DNA of 64,000 nt from Cytophagales bacterium (GTDB lineage: Bacteria; Bacteroidota; Bacteroidia; Cytophagales; Cytophagaceae). Below, piece after piece: positions 8,615 to 29,680 of the stretch. Under the pieces are notes generated by a model. The model was not told the DNA's origin and ran no database searches. It saw only the letters and a program-made list of their open reading frames with translations. The position numbers were made by a program, and so were the translations under genes. Position 1 is the first letter of the stretch, and every line of letters begins with the position of its first letter. Where the stretch lies: contig REBA01000014.1 in the NCBI GenBank assembly GCA_004294225.1, positions 1 through 64,000 on the forward strand, read 5' to 3'.

Positions 8615-8657
8615 TAATCAAATAACCAAACAAAAAATCTGCTTGGTTATTTGATTA
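8615..8657. terminator. Long hairpin between convergent genes
   Basis: A 15-bp perfect inverted repeat (TAATCAAATAACCAA at 8615-8629 and its complement at 8643-8657) with a 13-base loop lies between metH and the convergent DUF1501 gene. The right arm includes the last codons and the stop of the DUF1501 gene. No T-run follows on either side, so its role as an intrinsic terminator is plausible but not typical. Confidence 0.45.
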
Positions 8658-10305
8658 CTACCATCTTCTTAGAGGCTCTAAGCAAACCTGCTTCAATTTT
8701 ATAAACATAAGTTCCAGGCTTTAGTTCATCAACATTACATTGAACCTGATATTCCCCTGCAACCTGATGAGTATTCACTAGTTGTTTCACCAAAATACCA
8801 TTGATATCTATCAAACTTAGCTTTACATCAGCATCACTATTGATATAATATTTTATTACAGCATTAGATTTTACAGGATTTGGGAAACATTCAAAAAGTT
8901 TAAACCTAGTATTAAAGAAATCATCAACACCAACAGAATTACATAAAGTAACCACATCCAACATCATTGTAGAATTATTAAATTCTGAGAAAAGCACCTT
9001 ATTGTTAATCACCTCATCCGAAGCTTCAAACCAGTTTTTTAGCATTCCAGTAAATACTTGCCTATAATCATATTGATGCCTCAAATTACCACCTCCATCA
9101 AGATTCTTAAGCTCAGGACTATTGCCTATAATGCCGGGTTTTACGCAACTTCCGAATATAAACATTGGTGCTGCAGCTCCATGATCTGTGCCATAGCTTT
9201 CATTAGAGCGAGGAGTTCTGCCAAACTCTGAAAACGTAGCAGTAAGTACCCTGTTATCTATCCCCAAACCTTTCAAATCATCCTGAAATGCTTTCATCGC
9301 TGAAGAAAGGTGAAACAATAATGCAGCATGAGCACCTAAGGTGGTATCTGTCTTTTCAACTTGAAAATCATGATTATCAAAACCTGTGAGTCTTGCTAAG
9401 AAAACTTTTGTTTTACAGCCACCGCTAAGCAATCTGGCTATCAATCTAAGCTGAGGTGCAAGCTCGTTATCTAAAAATCCTTTGGGAGCGTTTAAAGGAT
9501 ATTTGCTTGGGTAAACGACAGAAGCAGTATTCTGACCTTTGTCGAATACCTGTTTTAATCTACCTGCATATTGATTAGACTTTTGCTCCATTTGTGAGAT
9601 GTAATCTAATTCAAAATTATAATAGGTATCTTTAAGCTCTGGGGGCAAGTCAGAATTTTTAACTTCATTAATTAAGTTAAAAAACTGATCAGGATTATCA
9701 ATAGATATTGACATTGGAATTGAACCATTATGAAAAGCTAGAGAAACATCTCTACCCAATTCTATAGCTAATGGATCTGGCTGTTCAGCTGTTGGATAAG
9801 CTTTGGGATAACCCGGAAACGTTTCGTCTAGATATCTGCCCATCCATCCTGAACCTAAATATTCGTTTGCATCTGAACCAGTATGCCATATATCTCTACC
9901 TCTGAAATGCGACATATTTAAATTTTGATAGGCTACATTCTGCACGATGGCCACTTTGCTTTGATCGTAAAGTGCTTTAAATCCACCCATGTCAGGATGA
10001 AGACCCACTTGTTTACTTTTATCCAAAGTGCTATCAAGATTAATAAACTTTCTTGTTCCTTTGTCGGGAATAGCAATATTCTGACGCATATTGTAATAAG
10101 TAGTATATTCTTCTATAGGCACTAATGTATTTAGCCCATCGTTACCACCATGCAATTGAATTAAAACAATTACTTTATCATTAGTTGCAGCGGCAGCCAT
10201 TTGAGTCAATAAATTTGACTTACTCAAAGCAGTCATTGGAATACCGCCAAGCATAAATGGGGTTGCAAAGGCTGGCATAGAACGAAGAAATTCTCTCCTC
10301 TTCAT
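8647..10305 (-). CDS. DUF1501 secreted protein with T9SS type A sorting tail
   Basis: A 552-residue protein starting MKRREFLRSMPAF, a twin-arginine-like or general signal sequence usual for DUF1501 (sulfatase/alkaline-phosphatase-fold related). The core shows IQLHGGNDGLNTLVP (about residues 49-63), the segment FSEFGRTPRSNE and the YGTDHGAAAPMFIFG segment, all characteristic. The last 80 residues (from about 470, FECFPNPVKSNAV...) form a T9SS C-terminal sorting domain ending in KKMVVIK, so the protein is expected to pass the outer membrane and be attached or released. It lies 32 bases after the DUF1800 gene; the two families occur together in many bacteria and are of unknown function. Confidence 0.92.
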   Translation of the reverse strand: MKRREFLRSMPAFATPFMLGGIPMTALSKSNLLTQMAAAATNDKVIVLIQLHGGNDGLNTLVPIEEYTTYYNMRQNIAIPDKGTRKFINLDSTLDKSKQVGLHPDMGGFKALYDQSKVAIVQNVAYQNLNMSHFRGRDIWHTGSDANEYLGSGWMGRYLDETFPGYPKAYPTAEQPDPLAIELGRDVSLAFHNGSIPMSISIDNPDQFFNLINEVKNSDLPPELKDTYYNFELDYISQMEQKSNQYAGRLKQVFDKGQNTASVVYPSKYPLNAPKGFLDNELAPQLRLIARLLSGGCKTKVFLARLTGFDNHDFQVEKTDTTLGAHAALLFHLSSAMKAFQDDLKGLGIDNRVLTATFSEFGRTPRSNESYGTDHGAAAPMFIFGSCVKPGIIGNSPELKNLDGGGNLRHQYDYRQVFTGMLKNWFEASDEVINNKVLFSEFNNSTMMLDVVTLCNSVGVDDFFNTRFKLFECFPNPVKSNAVIKYYINSDADVKLSLIDINGILVKQLVNTHQVAGEYQVQCNVDELKPGTYVYKIEAGLLRASKKMVVIK

Positions 10306-10337
10306 AATATCTATAGTTTAGAAGGTAAATCTATTTT

Positions 10338-12023
10338 TTACATTAATTGATATTCTGGCGACTTCATCAAATGCCAAAAGAAACTATCTAATAATTCTCT
10401 TACTACTTTATCATCTCCTGAAGTAAGGTAATCGCTCCACTCTGCAGTCCACTCCAAGTCTGGTTGATTATCTGTAAGCTTTCCTTTAAAATAATCTTTT
10501 CTTTCTTCTGTAATAGGTTCAGGCAAGGTCAAATCAATAGCTTGCAGAACAAAGGAATTTGTATCGCCTATATCACCTGTGAATATTCCAGAATTTCTTA
10601 CAAAATCAACTATATCTAGTCTAAAACCTATATCTTCCATACCATCTTTGCCATTAAGCAACTTTTTAGGAAACAAATATCTTTCAGCTAAATAATTGGC
10701 ACTAATCCATGAGCGATGAAAGAATGGGAATGCGTGATAAGCTTCATAACCTGCAACATCTAAAGGCTCGTAAAGATTAAGACCTTGTTTGGCTAGAGAT
10801 TCTGCGAAAAACTTCAAACTGTCTTGATTCGCAACATTAACATTGAATAGTCTCATCATTCCTAAAGACAAATCCAATGGTGATTTTATAATTGCACCAT
10901 TTGTTCTGTCTTCAGTTGCAGTAGAAGGGCTATCTTTAAAGAAAAAGTGCTCGCTTTTGAATAACTTTTCATAGACTGGCTTTAATTCATAATTATTAGA
11001 TTTTAATAGGACAGCCAATGGAGTAATAATATTATTTTCTACATAGTCATTGAGTTTGTATCCTTCTTCTGGGTTAGCAGGATTTTTTAGTTGATAAGGA
11101 GTGTTGTAGTAAACAAAATATCTATATATTTTTCTGCAAATATTTTTGGCAGTTTCTGTTTGATTGAAAATCATATTCATCAATTGATCAATCTCTTCAA
11201 TTACTACTAATTCTGTAGCACTTGATCCAGAAAGAGCACTTGGGGCTATTTGTTGATTTCCAAACCTTGTACTAAAAGTTTTGGTGCTTATGTCATGTTC
11301 TGAAGATAAACCTGCTGGTGTAGTTCTTAATTTACCTCTTGGAATCCCCGTAACAGCATCTATAGTGGCATAAGTAAGGTCTGTTGTGAAACCAGTCAAT
11401 ACTTTTGCCGCTGATTTTACATCTTGTTCTGTATAATTGCCATAGTCATTAGTTCCTAAAGTTTCTGGGTTCTGAAAAAATTTTCCAATAGTATAAAGTT
11501 CTAACAACTCTCGTGCATAATTTTCATTAGGACTTTTCTTTATATTAGAACTTCCGCTCAATAGCATCAGCATTGCATTATCTAGGTTAATAGCTGTAGC
11601 TAAGGTTTTGATATTACCTAAAGAATATTTTCTTAAGAGTTTATTTTGATAATACACTGGGGTATGTTTCTCAAAGACCGAAAAGATACAAGTAAAATGG
11701 GTGTGTAAAAAGAAAGTTAGTTTCTCTTGTGCATTAGCACCAGATTTTAGCATTCTATTAATCCACCAAGACTTAAGTTGTGTAATTTTAGTTCCTTCAT
11801 CAATTTTCTCATTAGGCAGAGGTTTAGCTACCAACCAGCTAAGTTCAGCATCTGTTTCAATTGGAGCCACAACTGGAGCAAACAAATCAGCTATTGCTTG
11901 ATCAATAGTTTTAGAAGCAAAAGCATCTATCATTGCTTTATTGGGGCCAAAGGTCAGTCTGCGAAGCAAGTGAGCAGCGGCTTTCTTTCCAAGCAAACCA
12001 GTTATTGGGTCTAGTGCAGCCAT
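10338..12023 (-). CDS. DUF1800 family protein
   Basis: A 561-residue member of the DUF1800 family. Recognisable parts are the N-terminal HLLRRLTFGPNKAMID (about residues 18-33), KLTFFLHTHFTC (about 100-111), and NENYARELLELYTIGK (about 165-180), the signature region. Only one convincing ATG gives this conserved start; there is no obvious signal peptide, as in many relatives. It is the first gene of a two-gene unit with DUF1501 downstream. The pair is conserved widely in Bacteroidota and Planctomycetota; no biochemical role is known to me. The 113 bases before it are AT-rich without a clear -7 box. Confidence 0.92.
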   Translation of the reverse strand: MAALDPITGLLGKKAAAHLLRRLTFGPNKAMIDAFASKTIDQAIADLFAPVVAPIETDAELSWLVAKPLPNEKIDEGTKITQLKSWWINRMLKSGANAQEKLTFFLHTHFTCIFSVFEKHTPVYYQNKLLRKYSLGNIKTLATAINLDNAMLMLLSGSSNIKKSPNENYARELLELYTIGKFFQNPETLGTNDYGNYTEQDVKSAAKVLTGFTTDLTYATIDAVTGIPRGKLRTTPAGLSSEHDISTKTFSTRFGNQQIAPSALSGSSATELVVIEEIDQLMNMIFNQTETAKNICRKIYRYFVYYNTPYQLKNPANPEEGYKLNDYVENNIITPLAVLLKSNNYELKPVYEKLFKSEHFFFKDSPSTATEDRTNGAIIKSPLDLSLGMMRLFNVNVANQDSLKFFAESLAKQGLNLYEPLDVAGYEAYHAFPFFHRSWISANYLAERYLFPKKLLNGKDGMEDIGFRLDIVDFVRNSGIFTGDIGDTNSFVLQAIDLTLPEPITEERKDYFKGKLTDNQPDLEWTAEWSDYLTSGDDKVVRELLDSFFWHLMKSPEYQLM

Positions 12024-20426: not shown

Positions 20427-21542
20427 ATGTCAAAAGTAGCCCTTATTACAGGTATCACAGGTCAAGATGGATCTTATCTTACTGAATTTTTACTAAAAAA
20501 GAATTATATAGTTCATGGTATAAAAAGAAGATCCTCTTTATTCAATACAGATAGAATAGACCATTTATATCAAGACCCACACGAAAAAAACATAAGTCTA
20601 AAACTTCACTATGGAGATTTAACCGACTCTACAAATCTTATTAGGATTATTCAAGAAGTTCAGCCAGATGAAATTTATAATCTAGCCGCAATGAGCCATG
20701 TTCATGTAAGTTTTGATACTCCAGAATATACCGCTAATGCCGATGGAATTGGTACTTTACGAATTTTGGAGGCGATAAGAATATTAAAGCTAGAAAAGAA
20801 AACAAAAGTTTATCAAGCCTCTACAAGTGAACTTTATGGTTTGGTACAAGCTGTTCCTCAGAGCGAAACTACTCCTTTTTATCCTAGAAGTCCTTATGCT
20901 GTAGCTAAAATGTATGCTTATTGGATTACAGTCAATTACAGAGAAGCCTACAATATGTTTGCTTGTAATGGAATCTTATTCAATCACGAATCACCGAATA
21001 GAGGTGAAACATTTGTAACAAGAAAAATTACTAGAGCAGTTTCCAAAATCGCACTAGGAATGCAAGATCAGTTATATCTGGGAAATCTTGATGCTCAAAG
21101 AGATTGGGGACATGCTAAAGATTACGTAGAAGCAATGTGGTTAATACTTCAACAAGAAACCCCTGAAGACTATGTTATAGCTACAGGAGTTACAACAAGA
21201 GTGAGAGAGTTTGTAAGGTTAGCATTTGCTGAACTGGGTATTGAAGTCGAATTTAAAGGTATTGGAGTTGATGAAAAAGGCTATGTAGCCTCTTGCAAAA
21301 ATCCTGAATACCAAATTGAAATAGGGAAACAAGTAGTTGCTGTAGATTCTAGGTACTTCAGACCTACAGAAGTAGAACTACTAATTGGCGACCCCACAAA
21401 ATCAAAAACAAAACTTGGCTGGGAACCCAAATATGATTTACTAGCTCTTATTCAAGATATGATGAAAGCAGATATTAAACTAATGAAAAAAGACAAATAT
21501 CTTAAAGAAGGAAACTTTAATACCTTAAACTATTTTGAATAA
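20427..21542 (+). CDS. gmd: GDP-mannose 4,6-dehydratase
   Basis: A 371-residue short-chain dehydrogenase/reductase enzyme that converts GDP-D-mannose to GDP-4-keto-6-deoxy-D-mannose, the precursor of GDP-fucose, rhamnose or perosamine. The NADP-binding motif [10 protein letters not shown] is at about residues 9-18, the arginine/serine segment [12 protein letters not shown] near 34-45, and the catalytic Tyr-Lys in [12 protein letters not shown] near 158-169. The length matches the family. It starts a close-spaced set (gaps of 17, 25, 23 and 8 bases) with polysaccharide export genes, implying a 6-deoxyhexose in an exported polymer. The enzymes that would finish the sugar (e.g. fucose synthase) are not in this window. 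Confidence 0.97.
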
Positions 21543-21559
21543 ACCATCAATTATTAAAA

Positions 21560-22327
21560 ATGTATCATTATACTAATTATAAAAAGCAATTCCTCTTAGC
21601 TCTATTTTTTCTGATTTTTCTAGGTATGTATAGTTGCATACCCTATAAAAAAACATTGTTGCTTCGAGAAAAAAATAGTAAGTATAAGGATACCCTCCCC
21701 ACCTATATTTCTCAGTACAAACTGCAAACAAATGATATTGTCTCTATCAATATCACTAGTTTTAATAAACAAGTAAGTAGTTTTTACAATCTAGAAAATA
21801 CAGCAGATATTGGTGGGTTCTTGATAAAATCAAATGGATATATTAATATCCCTATGGTAGATAGTATTTATGTTCTAAATTTAACGATTCCCGAATTAGA
21901 AAAAGAACTATACATTGCACTAAAAGAGCAAATAAAAGAGCCTTATATTGTTGTAAGGTTAGTTAATTTCAAGCTTATCTTCCTCGGAGAAATCGGTAAC
22001 CCTGGGGTAGTTGCTGTAAAAAACAATTCAATCAATATTTTTGAAGCTTTGGCTTTGGCAGGTAATATTAGTGAAATGGGAAATAATACTGAAGTTAAGA
22101 TAGTTCGAAAACAAGATGACAATAAGAGTTACATCATAAAGTTAGACCTAACTTCAAAAGACATCATCGCCTCTCCTTACTACTTCCTTCAACCTAACGA
22201 TATTATATATATTGAACCTCTAAGAGTTAAAACCTTTAGAACAAATTTCCAAACAGTAGCCTCGTTCCTAGGAGTTTCTACTTTTATCATAGTAATTTCA
22301 AATTTTTTAGTGAGCTTAAGCAGATAA
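21560..22327 (+). CDS. Polysaccharide export lipoprotein (Wza-like)
   Basis: A 255-residue outer-membrane lipoprotein with lipobox GMYSC (Cys26). It contains a polysaccharide-export domain (about residues 48-125, YKLQTNDIVSINI...KSNGYINIP) and one SLBB unit (about 135-185, IFLGEIGNPGVVAVKNN). A C-terminal hydrophobic segment (about 230-250) could form the membrane-spanning helix. Wza-type proteins make the outer-membrane channel for capsule or exopolysaccharide. Bacteroidota versions are shorter than Escherichia coli Wza, with one SLBB, as here. It lies between gmd and the Wzc-like gene. Confidence 0.92.
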   Translation: MYHYTNYKKQFLLALFFLIFLGMYSCIPYKKTLLLREKNSKYKDTLPTYISQYKLQTNDIVSINITSFNKQVSSFYNLENTADIGGFLIKSNGYINIPMVDSIYVLNLTIPELEKELYIALKEQIKEPYIVVRLVNFKLIFLGEIGNPGVVAVKNNSINIFEALALAGNISEMGNNTEVKIVRKQDDNKSYIIKLDLTSKDIIASPYYFLQPNDIIYIEPLRVKTFRTNFQTVASFLGVSTFIIVISNFLVSLSR

Positions 22328-22352
22328 ATAAAGCATTTACATCAATAATTTA

Positions 22353-24788
22353 ATGAAAAAGAAAAGACAAGAAATAAGAGAAGATACTATAGATTTCAGG
22401 GCATTAATCAGTAAATTTATAAAAAAATGGTATTGGTTCGTTATAGCAATTATAATAGCCTATTTCAGTGCCATTGCGTATATCAAATTCTATACAGAAC
22501 CAGTTTATAGAGTTTCGGCTTATTTATTAGCTAAAGATGAAAGTGCTACGATTAAAGGTATTGGAGCTACTTCATCTTATGGTAGTAGCAAAAATCTTTC
22601 TAATGAAATAGCTATCATTAGATCGTTTGATGTGGTTTGGAAAGTTATGGAAGAACTTGACTTTGGTATATCTTATTATCATAAAGGTAAATTTAATACC
22701 AAAGAGTTTTACCATAATTCACCAATAAAAGTAGTTCTAGACTCAAACAGCTATCAAATAGCTAACGCCCCTTTCTATATTACTTTTTTAGGAGAAAATA
22801 AATATAAATTAGAATCCTATATCAATTCTAATCTTGCCTATGATGTGAAGACGGACAAATCTCTAGAATCAACTACAAATATCTACATCAACGAAATTAT
22901 AGAGTTTGGTGTACCCTATAAAAATAAGAATATAGGATTTACTGTTTTTGTTCAGAATCCTTATTTTGTTCAAAATGATACAAAACTTTTCTTTACTATC
23001 AATGATAGAACAAACCTAACTTTGATTTATAAAAACAAACTCAATATCACTCAACAATCAAAGGAATCAAGCTTATTAGAATTATCAACCTCTGGTCCAT
23101 TATTGCAAAAAGATATAGAATTTATCAATAAAACTTGCGAGACTTATGTTCAATATGGATTGGATGAAAAAACTCTCCAAGCTTCTAAAACCATTAACTT
23201 TATTGATGAACAATTAGAATCCATTTCTAGATATTTAAAGAATGCCGACGAACAAATGGAGTCATTCAGAACTAAAAATAAAATAGCAGATGTTGATAAA
23301 TCTACAAAGTTAGCTTATACTAAATTAGAAGGGCTAGAAACTCAAAAAGCTTCTATTCAACTTAATATCAAATATTATCATTATATATTAGATTACATTC
23401 AATCCAACAAAGATTTCAAAGCAATTGTAGCACCATCTGCTATAGGAATTGGAGATCCTTTACTTTCCAATCTTATTGGGCAATTAATCAGCCTTAAAAC
23501 TGAAAGAATAGCCATAGAATCTAGTAGCACCAAAAAAAATCCTGTTTTACAAAATCTCGATGAAAGAATATCAAATGTAAAACAAACCTTAGAAGAAAAT
23601 CTAAAGAACATAATTAGTGGCACTGAATTAACTCTTAAAGATTTAAATTTCAGGATAAGTGAAATAGAAGAAAAATTAGAAATTTTACCACAAACAGAGC
23701 GATTATACTTAGAGGTTCAGCGTAAATATAATCTCAACGATAATCTATATACCTACTTGCTTGAGAAAAGAGCTGAAGCAGCTATTTCAAGAGCTTCAAG
23801 CACCCCTGATGCAAGAATATTAGATAAAGCAAGACTTCAGACATCTCCTCAAATTGCTCCTAAAACCAATTTGATTTATACCGCATTCTTTATGATAATT
23901 CTAATCATTCCCATAATTATCATTATTGTAAATGATTTTCTTAATAATAAAATTATGTCTAAGTCTGACTTAGAATCAATAACAGATTTACCTATTTTAG
24001 GTATCATTGGTCATAGCAAAATCAAATCTAATTTAGCAGTTTATGACAAACCCAAATCGGGAATTGCTGAAGCATTTCGTTCTATCAGAATTAATTTAAA
24101 CTATCTTCTACCCGATAAAGTAAAGAAAGTAGTAACTATAACCTCTTCTATAAGCGGAGAAGGTAAAACATTTTGTTCCATCAATTTAGCATCTATATTA
24201 TCCTTATCTGGATACAAAACCATATTGATTGGTGCTGACTTAAGAAAGCCAAAAATATTTGATGATTTCGGATTTAACAACTTAAAAGGAATGAGCAACT
24301 ACCTTGCTGGAAGAGCTCAATTAGAAGATATTATTAACACCTCCAAATTTGACAACTTAGATGTTCTGCTATCTGGTCCAGTGCCTCCCAATCCAGCAGA
24401 ATTATTAAACAATCAAAGAATGGATACTTTGATAGAAGAATTAAAATTGAAATATGATTATATTGTAATAGATACACCTCCAATAGGACTAGTGGCAGAT
24501 TGCTTTATCTTAATGAAATACTCTGACATCAATATCTATATTGTAAGACATGGCTATACAGAAACAAGGTTATTAGAAAAAGTAGATAGTATGTATGAAG
24601 AAGGAAAAATATCTAATATGAACATTATTATCAATGACCTTATAGATACAGATGCAAAATATGGTTACGGATACGAATATGGCTATGGATACTATAATGG
24701 CTATGGATACTATGAAGAAGATAATGATAGTATGCTAAAAAAAGCAAAAGAATGGATACAAAAGCTCAGGAATAAAACAACTAGTTGA
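22353..24788 (+). CDS. Wzc-like polysaccharide co-polymerase / tyrosine kinase
   Basis: An 811-residue inner-membrane protein. It has an N-terminal Wzz domain with TM1 at about 27-48, a long periplasmic coiled-coil (GNVR) region, TM2 at about 505-528, and a cytoplasmic BY-kinase domain. The kinase Walker A (SSISGEGKTFCSIN, near 598), Walker A' (LIGADLRKP, near 626) and Walker B (YIVIDTPPIG, near 703) are intact. A tyrosine-rich tail (alternating Tyr and Gly, about 772-789) is the expected autophosphorylation cluster. It would control chain length and export through the Wza-like channel encoded just upstream. The tail is unusually regular. Confidence 0.95.
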   Translation: MKKKRQEIREDTIDFRALISKFIKKWYWFVIAIIIAYFSAIAYIKFYTEPVYRVSAYLLAKDESATIKGIGATSSYGSSKNLSNEIAIIRSFDVVWKVMEELDFGISYYHKGKFNTKEFYHNSPIKVVLDSNSYQIANAPFYITFLGENKYKLESYINSNLAYDVKTDKSLESTTNIYINEIIEFGVPYKNKNIGFTVFVQNPYFVQNDTKLFFTINDRTNLTLIYKNKLNITQQSKESSLLELSTSGPLLQKDIEFINKTCETYVQYGLDEKTLQASKTINFIDEQLESISRYLKNADEQMESFRTKNKIADVDKSTKLAYTKLEGLETQKASIQLNIKYYHYILDYIQSNKDFKAIVAPSAIGIGDPLLSNLIGQLISLKTERIAIESSSTKKNPVLQNLDERISNVKQTLEENLKNIISGTELTLKDLNFRISEIEEKLEILPQTERLYLEVQRKYNLNDNLYTYLLEKRAEAAISRASSTPDARILDKARLQTSPQIAPKTNLIYTAFFMIILIIPIIIIIVNDFLNNKIMSKSDLESITDLPILGIIGHSKIKSNLAVYDKPKSGIAEAFRSIRINLNYLLPDKVKKVVTITSSISGEGKTFCSINLASILSLSGYKTILIGADLRKPKIFDDFGFNNLKGMSNYLAGRAQLEDIINTSKFDNLDVLLSGPVPPNPAELLNNQRMDTLIEELKLKYDYIVIDTPPIGLVADCFILMKYSDINIYIVRHGYTETRLLEKVDSMYEEGKISNMNIIINDLIDTDAKYGYGYEYGYGYYNGYGYYEEDNDSMLKKAKEWIQKLRNKTTS

Positions 24789-24811
24789 TATAAAATTAAC
24801 CAATACTTTAT

Positions 24812-25681
24812 ATGTCTTTTACAAAGATAAAAACTATATTATTAGTATATTTTATTGGGATATCTCCCCTATTTGTAAAAGCCCAAGGTATGGAAGATGC
24901 TAAATGGTGGATGGGAGCAAAAGCAGGAATAAACTTTACCTATCCTCATGTAAGCACATCTTACTCAGTGATGGAATCATTAAATCAAAGTACTACCGAT
25001 GACTTAGAAAAAGAATATGAAACCATTTTTAAAAATATTGGTCCAAGTCTAGGTATTACATTAACTTACTCTATTACCCCTAGTATATCTATCAGTGCCC
25101 AGCCAGGTTATCTTAGCTATTATTACAACTTCTCAAATAATCATATTTGGAGTGATTCAATACAAAATAAATATTTGTTAAATAATAGCTTAAGAACAAA
25201 ATTACACTACATAGAACTTCCTTTATTGTTCAAGTATGAGTACAGTTTTCAAAAACTGCAGCCATATATCCAACTAGGTGCGTACTACAGCTTTCTTCTA
25301 AATGGAAAAAATATTTTAAAATCTGACGAAAAACTCAGAACTCCAGTTGAAGAATTTGATTTGCATTCTAGAACAGAAGACTTCAATGTAAATAACCAGT
25401 ACATTTCTTCACTCTATGGATTAATTGGAGGCGTGGGATTATCAATTGATGTCAATTTTTTTAGAATAGGTTTAGATTGCAATTATAGGTATGGGCTAAA
25501 TAACATTACAGACCGAAAAAACAGGCTAGAACAGCAAACCATGATCAATAGTTCCTATGAAGTTGCCGACGACATAAAACTTCAAAATCTAGAATTTACC
25601 ATACACTGTTCTACCCCACTGGACTACTTAATTCACACTCCAGGGATGTCTGGTAAAGCAGGAAAAGTTAGACGTAGATAA
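24812..25681 (+). CDS. Outer-membrane beta-barrel protein, PorT-like
   Basis: A 289-residue exported protein with a signal peptide ending near VKAQ. The body alternates strand-forming segments (WWMGAKAGINFTYP, ISISAQPGYLSYYYNF, HYIELPLLFKYEY, IQLGAYYSFLLNG, IGGVGLSIDV) as in the outer-membrane beta-barrel family that includes PorT. Such barrels are structural or assembly factors. Its place directly after the Wzc-like gene (23 bases) suggests a link with polysaccharide export or with the lipoprotein that follows after 8 bases. No closer function can be given. Confidence 0.8.
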   Translation: MSFTKIKTILLVYFIGISPLFVKAQGMEDAKWWMGAKAGINFTYPHVSTSYSVMESLNQSTTDDLEKEYETIFKNIGPSLGITLTYSITPSISISAQPGYLSYYYNFSNNHIWSDSIQNKYLLNNSLRTKLHYIELPLLFKYEYSFQKLQPYIQLGAYYSFLLNGKNILKSDEKLRTPVEEFDLHSRTEDFNVNNQYISSLYGLIGGVGLSIDVNFFRIGLDCNYRYGLNNITDRKNRLEQQTMINSSYEVADDIKLQNLEFTIHCSTPLDYLIHTPGMSGKAGKVRRR

Positions 25682-25689
25682 ATTAAATA

Positions 25690-26925
25690 TTGATGAAAAA
25701 TAAATCTAACTATTGGCTGACAATTATATCGCTGAGCCTTATAATTTTTGCTTGTGATGTAAAAAATAACAAGGTAGATCCTTCAATGGGCTTTACCAAA
25801 ATATACAATTCAGATTCAGTAGAGAGCAATCATTTTCCAGTAGATATCCAACAAACTAATGATGGTGGTTATTATTTTCTTGGCTATAACCTTCAAGCAG
25901 AAGCAAAAAGCATGATTATTAGAACAGATAATGATGGCAAGCTACTTTGGTCTCATATTTCAAATCAATATTTAAACCCTGTTTCTGATTTAATCAAAGT
26001 AGGAGATAATTATTATTTTGTATGTGCCAAAAATTTAACCTTTGAAATCGCTATTTTAAGAATAAACGAAACCAGCAAAAGTCTAGAAGAAGTAAAATTA
26101 TTAGATGAAAGCAAGAAACCTTTGGCCGCTTGTGCTACTCCAGATAAAGGAATTCTAATTCTAGCTTACGATTTCCCTAACTCTGAAACCGTTTTAATAA
26201 AACTAAATAGCTCCTTCGAGCTTGACAATAGTTTTAGTAATGACGGAAAAAGTGGATTCCAAATTAGCCAGCTTGAAATTATGGACGATAGAATTAATAA
26301 TCACATGACTTTTCAAGGTACAAGATTACCATTCTTTGTAAGCTATATTGGCGAACCTAATGTTTCTAGCTATGTTTTTAATGGAGTAAACGAATACGAC
26401 ATCACGCTTACTGCAATAAACCCTATTACTGGGGAACCACAAGGAAAAATAGATGGATTCAGGTACAAAAAATGCATGAGTAGCTTTTGTTACTTAGGAA
26501 ACAACAAAGCAGCGATGTCGAAATTTGAAGATGTAAACAATTATTTTGCTCCAAGTTTCAATACATTAGAATTTACTAGAGGGAACTTTATCAATATTTC
26601 TGACTTAAGTACTTTAGAAAAAAGAGAAATACAAGCCAATAGCCAAATAAAGTGCAAACTAACCTCTATAGCAGGCAGGAAAATAGTGATTTATGTAGCT
26701 GAATTAAAAAATAATACTGTAGGGCTATTTGCTTACGATGCTGCAAATGGAACCTTTGCAGGGGCTAGATATTTTGGAAGTACCAATGCATATAAAATAG
26801 GAAATATTACCACCACATCCGATGGTGGACTTGCCGTACTTTGTCAAACATATGTTGCTGGAAGATTTGGAAGAATGTGTTTATTCAAATTATCCAAAGA
26901 ACAAACAGAAGAATTCATCAAATAA
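25690..26925 (+). CDS. Lipoprotein with propeller-like repeats, function unknown
   Basis: A 411-residue lipoprotein (lipobox IIFAC, Cys22). The body shows repeats of the kind PVDIQQTNDGGYYFLGYN and ITTTSDGGLAVLCQTY, where a DGG turn precedes a hydrophobic strand, as in beta-propellers built from short blades. No catalytic motif is seen. It is the last gene of the gmd-led unit (8 bases after the barrel gene). Its final codons and stop lie inside the left copy of the 175-bp direct repeat at 26911-27085, showing that the repeat originated from the sequence behind this gene. Confidence 0.8.
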   Translation: MMKNKSNYWLTIISLSLIIFACDVKNNKVDPSMGFTKIYNSDSVESNHFPVDIQQTNDGGYYFLGYNLQAEAKSMIIRTDNDGKLLWSHISNQYLNPVSDLIKVGDNYYFVCAKNLTFEIAILRINETSKSLEEVKLLDESKKPLAACATPDKGILILAYDFPNSETVLIKLNSSFELDNSFSNDGKSGFQISQLEIMDDRINNHMTFQGTRLPFFVSYIGEPNVSSYVFNGVNEYDITLTAINPITGEPQGKIDGFRYKKCMSSFCYLGNNKAAMSKFEDVNNYFAPSFNTLEFTRGNFINISDLSTLEKREIQANSQIKCKLTSIAGRKIVIYVAELKNNTVGLFAYDAANGTFAGARYFGSTNAYKIGNITTTSDGGLAVLCQTYVAGRFGRMCLFKLSKEQTEEFIK

Positions 26926-27085
26926 AACATTTTTACAGGAATTCTAACTTCTAGATAAAGAGGACAAAATTTATAATATTCAATATCTTCTCTTGAAATT
27001 ACAATAAGAGCCTCAACGGGTTGAGAATATTCAACGCTCAATTACAATACAAAACTGTACAATAGGGCAATAAAAAAACCTCAGT
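26911..27085 (+). repeat. 175-bp direct repeat, left copy
   Basis: About 97% identical to 29388-29561, with four substitutions and one single-base indel in an A-run. It begins inside the last codons of the lipoprotein gene (GAATTCATCAAATAA) and breaks off at CCTCAGT, after the first arm of the terminator that is complete in the right copy. Confidence 0.95.
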
Positions 27086-27382
27086 TAGTGCCGACGCCGT
27101 CAGTGCTGCTATATATCAAGGACGTCCGTCCGCTGTTTGAATTCAAGAGCAAAATCAATATCTTTGCGTTTGTTTTCTGTTAAAGATGAGCAACAAATAC
27201 AAATTTTAGAACACCTATCTTTCTTAGTAAACTTTATGTATAATCGTGAACACCGGGCGGAAGCCATGATAATAAAAGGAATACCGACGAACGTCGGCAC
27301 CAGCAGGGATGAATAATGCCTACTAGATTTAATACTAATGTAGCAGTAGCATTAAATATGTAAAATTTAATTATAAGTAAAT
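26926..27382. other. Intergenic: left direct repeat and 213-bp palindrome-bounded element
   Basis: Holds the non-coding part of the left direct repeat (to 27085), then the 213-bp element 27088-27300, then about 80 bases of AT-rich leader before the cargo gene. The element is richer in G+C than its surroundings. The only reading frame here (27109-27300, minus) has no recognisable similarity and is probably chance. Confidence 0.6.
27088..27300. repeat. 213-bp element bounded by 9-bp inverted repeats (MITE/REP-like)
   Basis: GTGCCGACG at 27088-27096 is matched by CGTCGGCAC at 27292-27300. The right end also forms a tight hairpin CCGACG-AA-CGTCGG (27284-27297). It lacks coding capacity for a transposase. 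The compositional contrast with the flanks and its position immediately beside the repeat junction suggest a short repetitive element. Copy number elsewhere is unknown. Confidence 0.45.
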
Positions 27383-29020
27383 ATGAAAGTATTTTTATTC
27401 TTTTCAATTTTTGCAATGTCTTTAAATGGACATTCGCAATACATCAATAGCCAGCTCAATAGTTCTCAAAGGTCTATCGGCCATGAGGTTATTTATGCTC
27501 AAAATGATTCTTGGATTGTCGCAAGTGAATCTAATAGAAAATTAAGCTTTTCTAAAATAGACAATGCTGGAAATAATATTTGGAATAAAACAATAGATAT
27601 TAAATATACAGAGCAGTATTCATTAGCTAAGACAATTTTAAGACCCAATGGCAACTATATATTTGCAGGAATTGCAGAATCTACCTGCGATGTATTGATA
27701 TATGTGATGTTTGTCATCGAGCTTTCTAATCAAGGTGAGATAGTGATGCAAGCAGAGTATCAAGTAAATTATTCTAAGCCTGTTTTTGTATTTGAAGATT
27801 TGTATCAAGATTTGGTAGTAATTCAAGACAATAAAATATTTACTGTTACAAATAACCAAATAGTTATAAAAAAAGAATTTAAAGATTATTACTTTACTGA
27901 AGTTGTACAAAAAAATGGCTATCTATATTATGGAAAATCATTTAATGAAATAGTTCAATTTGACAAAGATGGAGAAATAATAACCACTAGAGAAACTGCT
28001 AATCCTTCCAATTTATTCGTATTAAATAATACAGTAGTTTACCTAACCAATAACTTTATGTATAGTTATGATGATGAATCTATAGTTAGAGATTCAACTT
28101 TTCGAGGAGCCGAAATACCTAAATCTATCTTAAATTATAATAATGAGTTGTGGATTAATTATTCGAATAAAATCGTTTGGATGGATAATTTTTTTAGGAT
28201 AAAAAACGTTTGGGATTTAACTAAAATTCAAAATTTAGATATTTATAGTATAGGCTTATCGCCTAAAAATGTTTTTTTTGCAGGAACCAAAAGTGCTTTT
28301 AATAATAATGGCATTGCCTTAATTGCATTTAAAAAAAATGATAATCTAATAAAAATACTAGACAATGTTAGAATTGAAAATATAATCTTAAGCGATGTAT
28401 CTCATGTATCAGGAATCAATCAATATGGAGGTAAAATATTATATGTTTCACATAGAACAAAAATGATTGTGAGAAATAGTGGACCAACTGCTTTAAAAAA
28501 TTTTTATATTCATTACAGATTAGAGAGGGTAAATTTATCTGATTTTTGCTCAGGAATGGAAGAAGTAACTAAGAAAATTGAAAATGTAACACTATTTACC
28601 AATGATACTTTAGAGATAGATTTAGGAATTATCTTCAGATCAATTCCAAGTTTTGAAAATGATAGATTCAACTTCTGTGCCTCTGTATCTGCACCTAATA
28701 ATAAGATTAATAGCAGCAAAAATGATTACTTTTGCAAACTTTATCAATTTGATCCATTAGAATATTCGGCTCCTGAATCTGAGATTCTATTTACTTTATA
28801 CCCTAACCCAGCTACCATCATAGTGCATATAAACACAAAACAAAACTTAGGCGGGAGCCTAGTAATATTTAACGCCTTCGGGCAGCAAATACTAGAAAAG
28901 CCAATAGTCTCCGAAATAATAGACTGCGATATTGAAAATCTGACTAAGGGTTTTTATATAGTTGAACTTCTTCGTCAAAATGGTAGTTTCGCTGGTAGGC
29001 ATAAATTAGTGGTTCAATAA
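27383..29020 (+). CDS. T9SS type A cargo protein with propeller-like repeats
   Basis: A 545-residue exported protein with signal peptide ending near GHSQ. The body has weak repeats (DSWIVASESNRKLSFSKIDNAGNNIW and similar), resembling the blades of the lipoprotein encoded just before it. Near residues 370-460 lies a region with several cysteines and an Ig/CARDB-like character. The last 74 residues (from about 472, FTLYPNPATIIVHI ... FYIVELL ... HKLVVQ) are a T9SS sorting domain, so it is secreted and anchored or released by the type IX system. It is the only clear gene of the direct-repeat-flanked insertion, so may be a recently gained surface protein. Function unknown. Confidence 0.85.
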   Translation: MKVFLFFSIFAMSLNGHSQYINSQLNSSQRSIGHEVIYAQNDSWIVASESNRKLSFSKIDNAGNNIWNKTIDIKYTEQYSLAKTILRPNGNYIFAGIAESTCDVLIYVMFVIELSNQGEIVMQAEYQVNYSKPVFVFEDLYQDLVVIQDNKIFTVTNNQIVIKKEFKDYYFTEVVQKNGYLYYGKSFNEIVQFDKDGEIITTRETANPSNLFVLNNTVVYLTNNFMYSYDDESIVRDSTFRGAEIPKSILNYNNELWINYSNKIVWMDNFFRIKNVWDLTKIQNLDIYSIGLSPKNVFFAGTKSAFNNNGIALIAFKKNDNLIKILDNVRIENIILSDVSHVSGINQYGGKILYVSHRTKMIVRNSGPTALKNFYIHYRLERVNLSDFCSGMEEVTKKIENVTLFTNDTLEIDLGIIFRSIPSFENDRFNFCASVSAPNNKINSSKNDYFCKLYQFDPLEYSAPESEILFTLYPNPATIIVHINTKQNLGGSLVIFNAFGQQILEKPIVSEIIDCDIENLTKGFYIVELLRQNGSFAGRHKLVVQ

Positions 29021-29387
29021 ATAGGACTAGCCAACTGGTCTATGTTTAGCGAAGGTTATCTTAGATCAATCATTACGTAAGCTTTAACTGAAAGATATTT
29101 CAAAAAAAATGTCACCTCATTTATACCCAATAGAGCAAGCAACCACTAGTCCAAGGTTGTAAATTAAGTTTTACTTGTTTTCTGGTTTTTTTCTGGTGCG
29201 AGCGTCCGCTCTTGCCATTTAACTTTTAAGGGATCGTGGAAGCAAACAAATAAAAACATTATCTTGCACTATGAGTCGCAAGTATTAAATAATGGGCAAT
29301 ACCAAAATTTACTTTGTTAATTTAATATTATGAATGCTTTATGTGTTGTGAAATAATAACGAAAAGGAGAAGCTTGCACCAGAGGGA
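29021..29387. other. Non-coding right part of the insertion
   Basis: About 370 bases after the cargo gene with no supported reading frame. It contains a GC-rich patch with the palindrome GAGCG-TC-CGCTC at 29200-29211, which stands out from the AT-rich neighbourhood. No clear intrinsic terminator for the cargo gene is seen. Confidence 0.5.
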
Positions 29388-29561
29388 GAATTCATCAAAT
29401 AAAACATTTTTACAGGAATTCTAACTTTTAGATAAAGAGGACAAAATTTATAATATTCAATATCTTTACTTGAAATTACAATAAGAGCCTCAACGGGTTG
29501 AGAATATTCAACGCTCAATTACAATACAAAACTGTACAATAGGACAATAAAAAACCTCAGT
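29388..29561 (+). repeat. 175-bp direct repeat, right copy
   Basis: Second copy of 26911-27085 (174 bases here). It includes a fragment equal to the end of the lipoprotein gene and continues straight into the intact terminator and tRNA-Ser, so this side keeps the probable ancestral right flank. Confidence 0.95.
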
Positions 29562-29595
29562 AATTTGAAGTTCAAGTTGCTGAGGTTTTATTTTG
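29551..29595. terminator. Bidirectional terminator behind tRNA-Ser
   Basis: AAAACCTCAG (29551-29560) pairs with CTGAGGTTTT (29580-29589), and the 19-base loop contains a second small inverted repeat (TTGAA/TTCAA). T-runs follow on both strands. On the minus strand it ends tRNA-Ser; on the plus strand it would have ended the lipoprotein operon before the insertion. Confidence 0.75.

Positions 29596-29680
<85 letters not shown>

Follow-up and report, generated by a model that had tools for sequence, protein, structure and literature searches.

Among the REP-associated tyrosine transposases (RAYTs), the Bacteroidetes subclass 2.6 combines a Y1 HUH transposase bearing WQ and YIHxNP motifs with atypical, imperfect, GTAG-free hairpins, which flank the gene and have copies elsewhere in the genome (Quentin et al. 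2018, PMC6006769). The prevailing view holds RAYTs to be domesticated, and there is no evidence that the tnpA-REP/RAYT genes themselves move (PMC8266576). In composite two-MITE gene units, short non-autonomous copies in the same orientation surround a passenger gene. Duplications of chromosomal stretches have been described in pneumococcal transformation, where a partly repeated fragment leads, via alternative pairing and unequal crossing-over, to the doubling of the stretch between the repeats (PMC3784515). Furthermore, homology-facilitated illegitimate recombination occurs in transformable bacteria and has been cited as the source of small variable segments (PMC2884548).

The locus described here lies in a window of 64,000 nucleotides from the genome of a Cytophagales bacterium (contig REBA01000014.1), between a lipoprotein gene and a tRNA-Ser gene. 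A segment of the intergenic region is duplicated around an insert, MITEs occupy both junctions of that insert, the right-hand copy of the segment retains the empty target of the first MITE, and the enclosed cargo gene has, by its divergence, been exchanged horizontally (Table 1).

Table 1. Coordinates in the window of the features at the duplicated locus
Feature	Position	Strand	Remarks
Lipoprotein gene	25690..26925	+	411 aa, intact; last codons within R
Left copy R	26910..27084		lipoprotein gene tail, intergenic stretch, first terminator arm CCTCAG
MITE1	27085..27308	+	internally deleted RAYT-element derivative; 224 bp
Cargo gene	27383..29020	+	545-aa secreted protein, T9SS type A C-terminal sorting domain (Pfam and TIGR profiles)
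MITE2	about 29146..29386	+	second family, similar plan: CTAG...CACCAGAGGG
Right copy R'	29387..29560		first base directly after MITE2
Bidirectional terminator hairpin	29550..29590		intact; contains unbroken MITE1 target CCTCAG^TAATTTG
tRNA-Ser (TGA)	29595..29680	-	

The two copies, which lie 2.3 kb apart, form a direct repeat (26910-27085 and 29387-29561) with 97.16% identity over 176 aligned columns, differing by four substitutions and one indel in an A-run. A second repeat-finding method recovered 168 ungapped nucleotides at 98%, and the two methods together confirm the earlier note on this DNA, which had counted the same differences. A chance origin of the repeat is excluded (E about 1e-80), and no copy beyond these two was found in the genome. 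The earlier description of the limits also holds: R, which contains the final codons of the lipoprotein gene, breaks at CCTCAG(T), which is the first terminator arm, while in R' the hairpin is complete (fold -13 kcal/mol, z -5.9) and the tRNA gene follows. The T after CCTCAG in the left copy is either a chance match between the copies or a part of MITE1. With a length of 175 bp, the duplication departs from the 2-14 bp target-site duplication of classical DDE transposition, which supports the view that it is too long for a normal one.

MITE1 begins at most 1 bp from the end of R, and the sharp right end of MITE2 places its last base directly before R', its left end being putative. The positions of the MITEs set the limits of the duplication, because the repeat copies stop exactly where a MITE begins. 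MITE1 is composed of a left end TTAG..., the start region of a RAYT gene and the 3' end of the element, ...CACCAGCAGGG; aligned with a full-length relative (L043, at the start of contig C31), it retains the gene start and the element 3' end and misses the middle. This relative carries the same ends around an intact gene for a 185-aa Y1 transposase, which matches Y1_Tnp and the profile NF047646 (REP-associated tyrosine transposase) with 86 bits against a cut-off of 80. MITE1 and an element encoding a RAYT have both ends in common. Contigs C31 and C53 overlap inside the intact RAYT element (L043 1-717 and the end of L044) and are probably joinable, and a T9SS-type gene with DUF285-like repeats is found directly downstream of it.

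The MITE1 family was found at 15 places, some of them partial, of which seven belong to this genome and eight to its congener. When the copies are aligned with their flanks, they start with (C/T)TAG and finish with CCAGCGGG or similar, and MITE1 differs from every other copy by at least 12%. Folding of the MITE1 ends gave z -2.2 on the right and z -0.4 on the left, at best imperfect hairpins of the sort known from subclass 2.6, and revealed no strong hairpin at the left ends of the MITEs. The motif YYCNG, whose frequency in the window is 0.8%, fits seven of the eight readable left flanks of the family, although it was picked after viewing the flanks and a formal probability overstates the case. 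Where R reads CCTCAG/TTAGTGCC, the slash marking the border with MITE1, R' reads CCTCAGTAATTTG; since R' reads through at this site, it preserves the uninterrupted MITE1 target, inside the terminator hairpin.

The ends of MITE2 resemble those of MITE1. Its relatives occur on one further contig of the same genome (C77) and on two contigs of the congener, and the search for a full-length, RAYT-bearing relative returned four short copies only. The insert consists of MITE1, the cargo gene and MITE2, with the two MITEs belonging to different families and sharing one orientation. As previously noted, the cargo gene is the only gene between the copies. The accompanying remark that transposase and integrase are absent is accurate for the genes of the insert, but it overlooks that the insert starts and finishes with MITE ends, of the RAYT type in MITE1 and probably also in MITE2. 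The whole two-MITE unit was found a single time, for which reason its classification as a composite transposon was rejected, and R' represents an empty site for MITE1 only.

The sorting domain of the cargo protein is recognised by Pfam PF18962 (E 9e-9) and by TIGR04183 (33.5 bits, cut-off 23). Its history was traced through a Cytophagales MAG, the sole congener found, whose counterpart of the cargo gene is incomplete, its contig ending within it. The two genes have a fourfold difference of 0.33 and a dS of 0.57 over 232 codons, as against fourfold differences of 0.63-0.73, mostly saturated, for nine orthologues of the window. In the congener, the gene adjoins a DUF1800/DUF1501 pair, whose counterpart in the window is located at 8647-12023. 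The cargo gene, judged by these comparisons, is horizontally exchanged, because it is far less diverged than the nine neighbouring orthologues and occupies another location in the congener. Its GC3 there is 0.20, compared with 0.31-0.41 for the other tested genes of that genome, a gap which could partly reflect gene class.

The congener carries neither R copy. The earlier note had named the presence of both copies in all relatives as the observation that would speak against a recent gain, and this single congener is the relative on which the comparison was run. Its tRNA-Ser gene has hemF on one side and CTP synthase on the other. The lipoprotein orthologue (67% amino acid identity, same C-terminus) is on a different contig, followed by an oppositely oriented gene; the neighbourhood has therefore undergone rearrangement after the two lineages parted, and the congener is no one-copy allele. 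Recency is supported on the scale of the genus, with copies 97% identical and a sole congener saturated at synonymous sites. Upstream, the window (20427-26925) encodes GDP-mannose dehydratase, Wza, Wzc, an OMP and the lipoprotein in an order which is the same in the congener, and this stretch is thus a conserved polysaccharide export block in which the lipoprotein gene comes last.

A tRNA-Ser gene so close by had raised the idea of integration at the tRNA 3' flank in the fashion of a genomic island. This is highly improbable, since R has no tRNA sequence and ends 34 bp from the tRNA 3' end, no integrase gene is present, and the junctions are MITE ends; the class of tRNA-integrated genomic islands, defined by an attachment repeat with the tRNA 3' end and a site-specific integrase, was rejected. 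A plasmid search gave only tRNA-like matches. The tRNA-Ser gene is a bystander.

Across about 0.7 Mb sampled from this genome, direct repeats with a minimum length of 40 bp and a minimum identity of 90% were found at four places, namely the window and contigs C5, C23 and C31, and only those in the window and on C5 are not IS-like. On C5 (L110 6597-8386; about 101597-103386), a 79-bp direct repeat with 97.5% identity is situated between mtgA and ligA and encloses, in this order after R, a MITE-interrupted fragment of an Rhs/YD-repeat gene, two small genes and a second MITE, both MITEs belonging to the MITE1 family. As at the right-hand junction in the window, R' starts on the base after a MITE right end, here one of the MITE1 family, with zero bases between. 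The left junction is formed by sequence of the Rhs fragment and has no MITE end. The repeats on C23 and on C31 have the appearance of IS remnants and were kept out of the main argument. The former (L128 7493-8920; 103 bp, 98%) resembles a remnant of an IS3-type transposase and surrounds an HTH gene and a RelB/RelE-like pair, with a truncated RAYT gene following, and the latter (L138 414-1943; 293 bp, 93.5%) is similar to IS ends and surrounds a gene for a zeta-toxin-like kinase.

Within the stretches of the congener that were sampled, contig C103 (L121 983-4328) contains a 474-bp direct repeat with 97.3% identity around a 2.4-kb insert. The repeat includes the last part of a T9SS gene together with a vapC-like gene, the latter truncated in the left copy and intact with its antitoxin in the right one. 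A degenerate MITE1 lies within the insert, whose junctions are free of MITEs. The layout is recurrent and is associated with MITE ends at the two clear loci of this genome, but a MITE is not required for it. A search of the literature on long duplications in bacteria found nothing on point.

The preferred explanation, in which belief and doubt are about evenly balanced, is that a MITE-bounded gene was gained and that recombination between alleles, either unequal or anchored by homology, duplicated its flank. The T9SS cargo gene, horizontally exchanged and set between two MITEs of the same orientation, RAYT-derived in the case of MITE1 and probably so in that of MITE2, would have come to lie between the lipoprotein and tRNA-Ser genes. 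In one allele, MITE1 would have entered the terminator at CTCAG^T, the type of site its family prefers; in the other, MITE2 would have become attached within the gene tail, directly ahead of AGAATTC. Recombination would then have united the left part of one allele with the right part of the other, the partners being two alleles or an incoming fragment and a sister chromosome. As an outcome, only the stretch between both MITE junctions would be doubled, leaving the lipoprotein gene, the full terminator and the tRNA intact. We infer the two alleles, the recombination step and their order, and the results support the earlier proposal of an insertion with a duplicated flank gained through recombination. 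Against this reconstruction stand the sites left of the right-hand junctions, ACAGA in the window and AAAGC on C5, which fall outside YYCNG, so that a simple canonical insertion is not shown there. The C5 left junction is not a MITE end, and the MITE-free junctions of the 474-bp duplication indicate that MITEs are unneeded for the layout. Moreover, an allele with one copy or a single MITE was not found in DNA and protein searches covering 19-59 relatives or in two scans of the GTDB genome collection.

A one-sided, homology-anchored capture is a possible but distinctly less probable origin. By homology-facilitated illegitimate recombination, incoming DNA ending in MITE2, R', terminator and tRNA would have paired by homology on its right side and been joined illegitimately on the left, doubling R and leaving the MITEs as incidental borders of donor homology. 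Such a capture explains the C5 case and the MITE-free one in the congener, and it fits C5 better than the model of two alleles does. The divergence between R and R' is also alike at both loci, 2.4-2.5%, which would fit an origin of R' in another strain, but the differences are few and the similarity is weak evidence. One-sided capture does not account for the left junction of the window coinciding exactly with the left end of MITE1 at a target-like site. Direct composite transposition through a RAYT is an unlikely alternative, in which one single-stranded unit, bounded by the MITE1 left end and the MITE2 right end, would be joined to sites 175 nt apart on sister strands, doubling R in one step. 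The MITEs share one orientation, so the left end of the first and the right end of the second delimit a valid unit; the two junctions are exact, the left target fits the family, and an intact RAYT is present. The two MITEs, however, belong to different families, and the left junction on C5 lacks a left end. Transposition of the IS200/IS605 type normally makes no duplication, and the sites at the right junctions miss the flank motif of the family. Furthermore, mobility of tnpA-REP genes is not shown (PMC8266576). That the copies derive from different strains, merged from a mixture during assembly of a genome from a metagenome, is improbable. In its favour, the congener is a MAG, the genome of the window comprises 84 contigs (contamination 3.5%), C31 and C53 are broken within the MITE1/RAYT repeat family, and the divergence is similar at both loci. 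Each junction must nevertheless exist in some strain, a false join through MITE1 is unlikely given its distance from all other copies, and only two such places occur in the portion of the genome surveyed.

The broader proposition that, in this genus, entire genes flanked by pairs of its MITEs are moved by a RAYT, with duplication of 80-175 bp of target, is unlikely; if true, it would be an outcome that was not found described for the IS200/IS605 or RAYT group. Both-ended MITE derivatives of a RAYT element border a recently exchanged surface-protein gene and are present at two insertions whose duplicated flanks are long. If this is borne out, the gain of secreted-protein genes in Bacteroidetes would be linked to MITEs derived from RAYTs, and a natural example of small duplications arising during gene gain would be at hand. 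The both-ended deleted RAYT derivatives and the MITEs bordering a recently exchanged T9SS cargo gene are the aspects that deserve further attention.

In relation to known systems, the transposase resembles that of subclass 2.6 by its motifs and by weak, GTAG-free ends, not letter for letter: NH[LIV]H and YIH[QN]NP are printed for the subclass (PMC6006769), and the RAYT described here has SHVH and YIHENP. Unlike in that subclass, the dispersed copies keep both ends and both edges of the RAYT gene, as IS-derived MITEs do, and such internally deleted derivatives suggest that the element moved or was copied as a unit. The insert shares with composite two-MITE units the arrangement of short copies around a passenger gene; it differs from them in its two MITE families, its single copy and the lack of a short target-site duplication. 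With the merodiploids of Streptococcus pneumoniae, the locus would have in common that a repeat-bearing fragment doubles the stretch between two repeats, but the pneumococcal duplications are experimental and extend up to a large part of the genome (PMC3784515), whereas those reported here measure 79-175 bp and were deduced from sequence.
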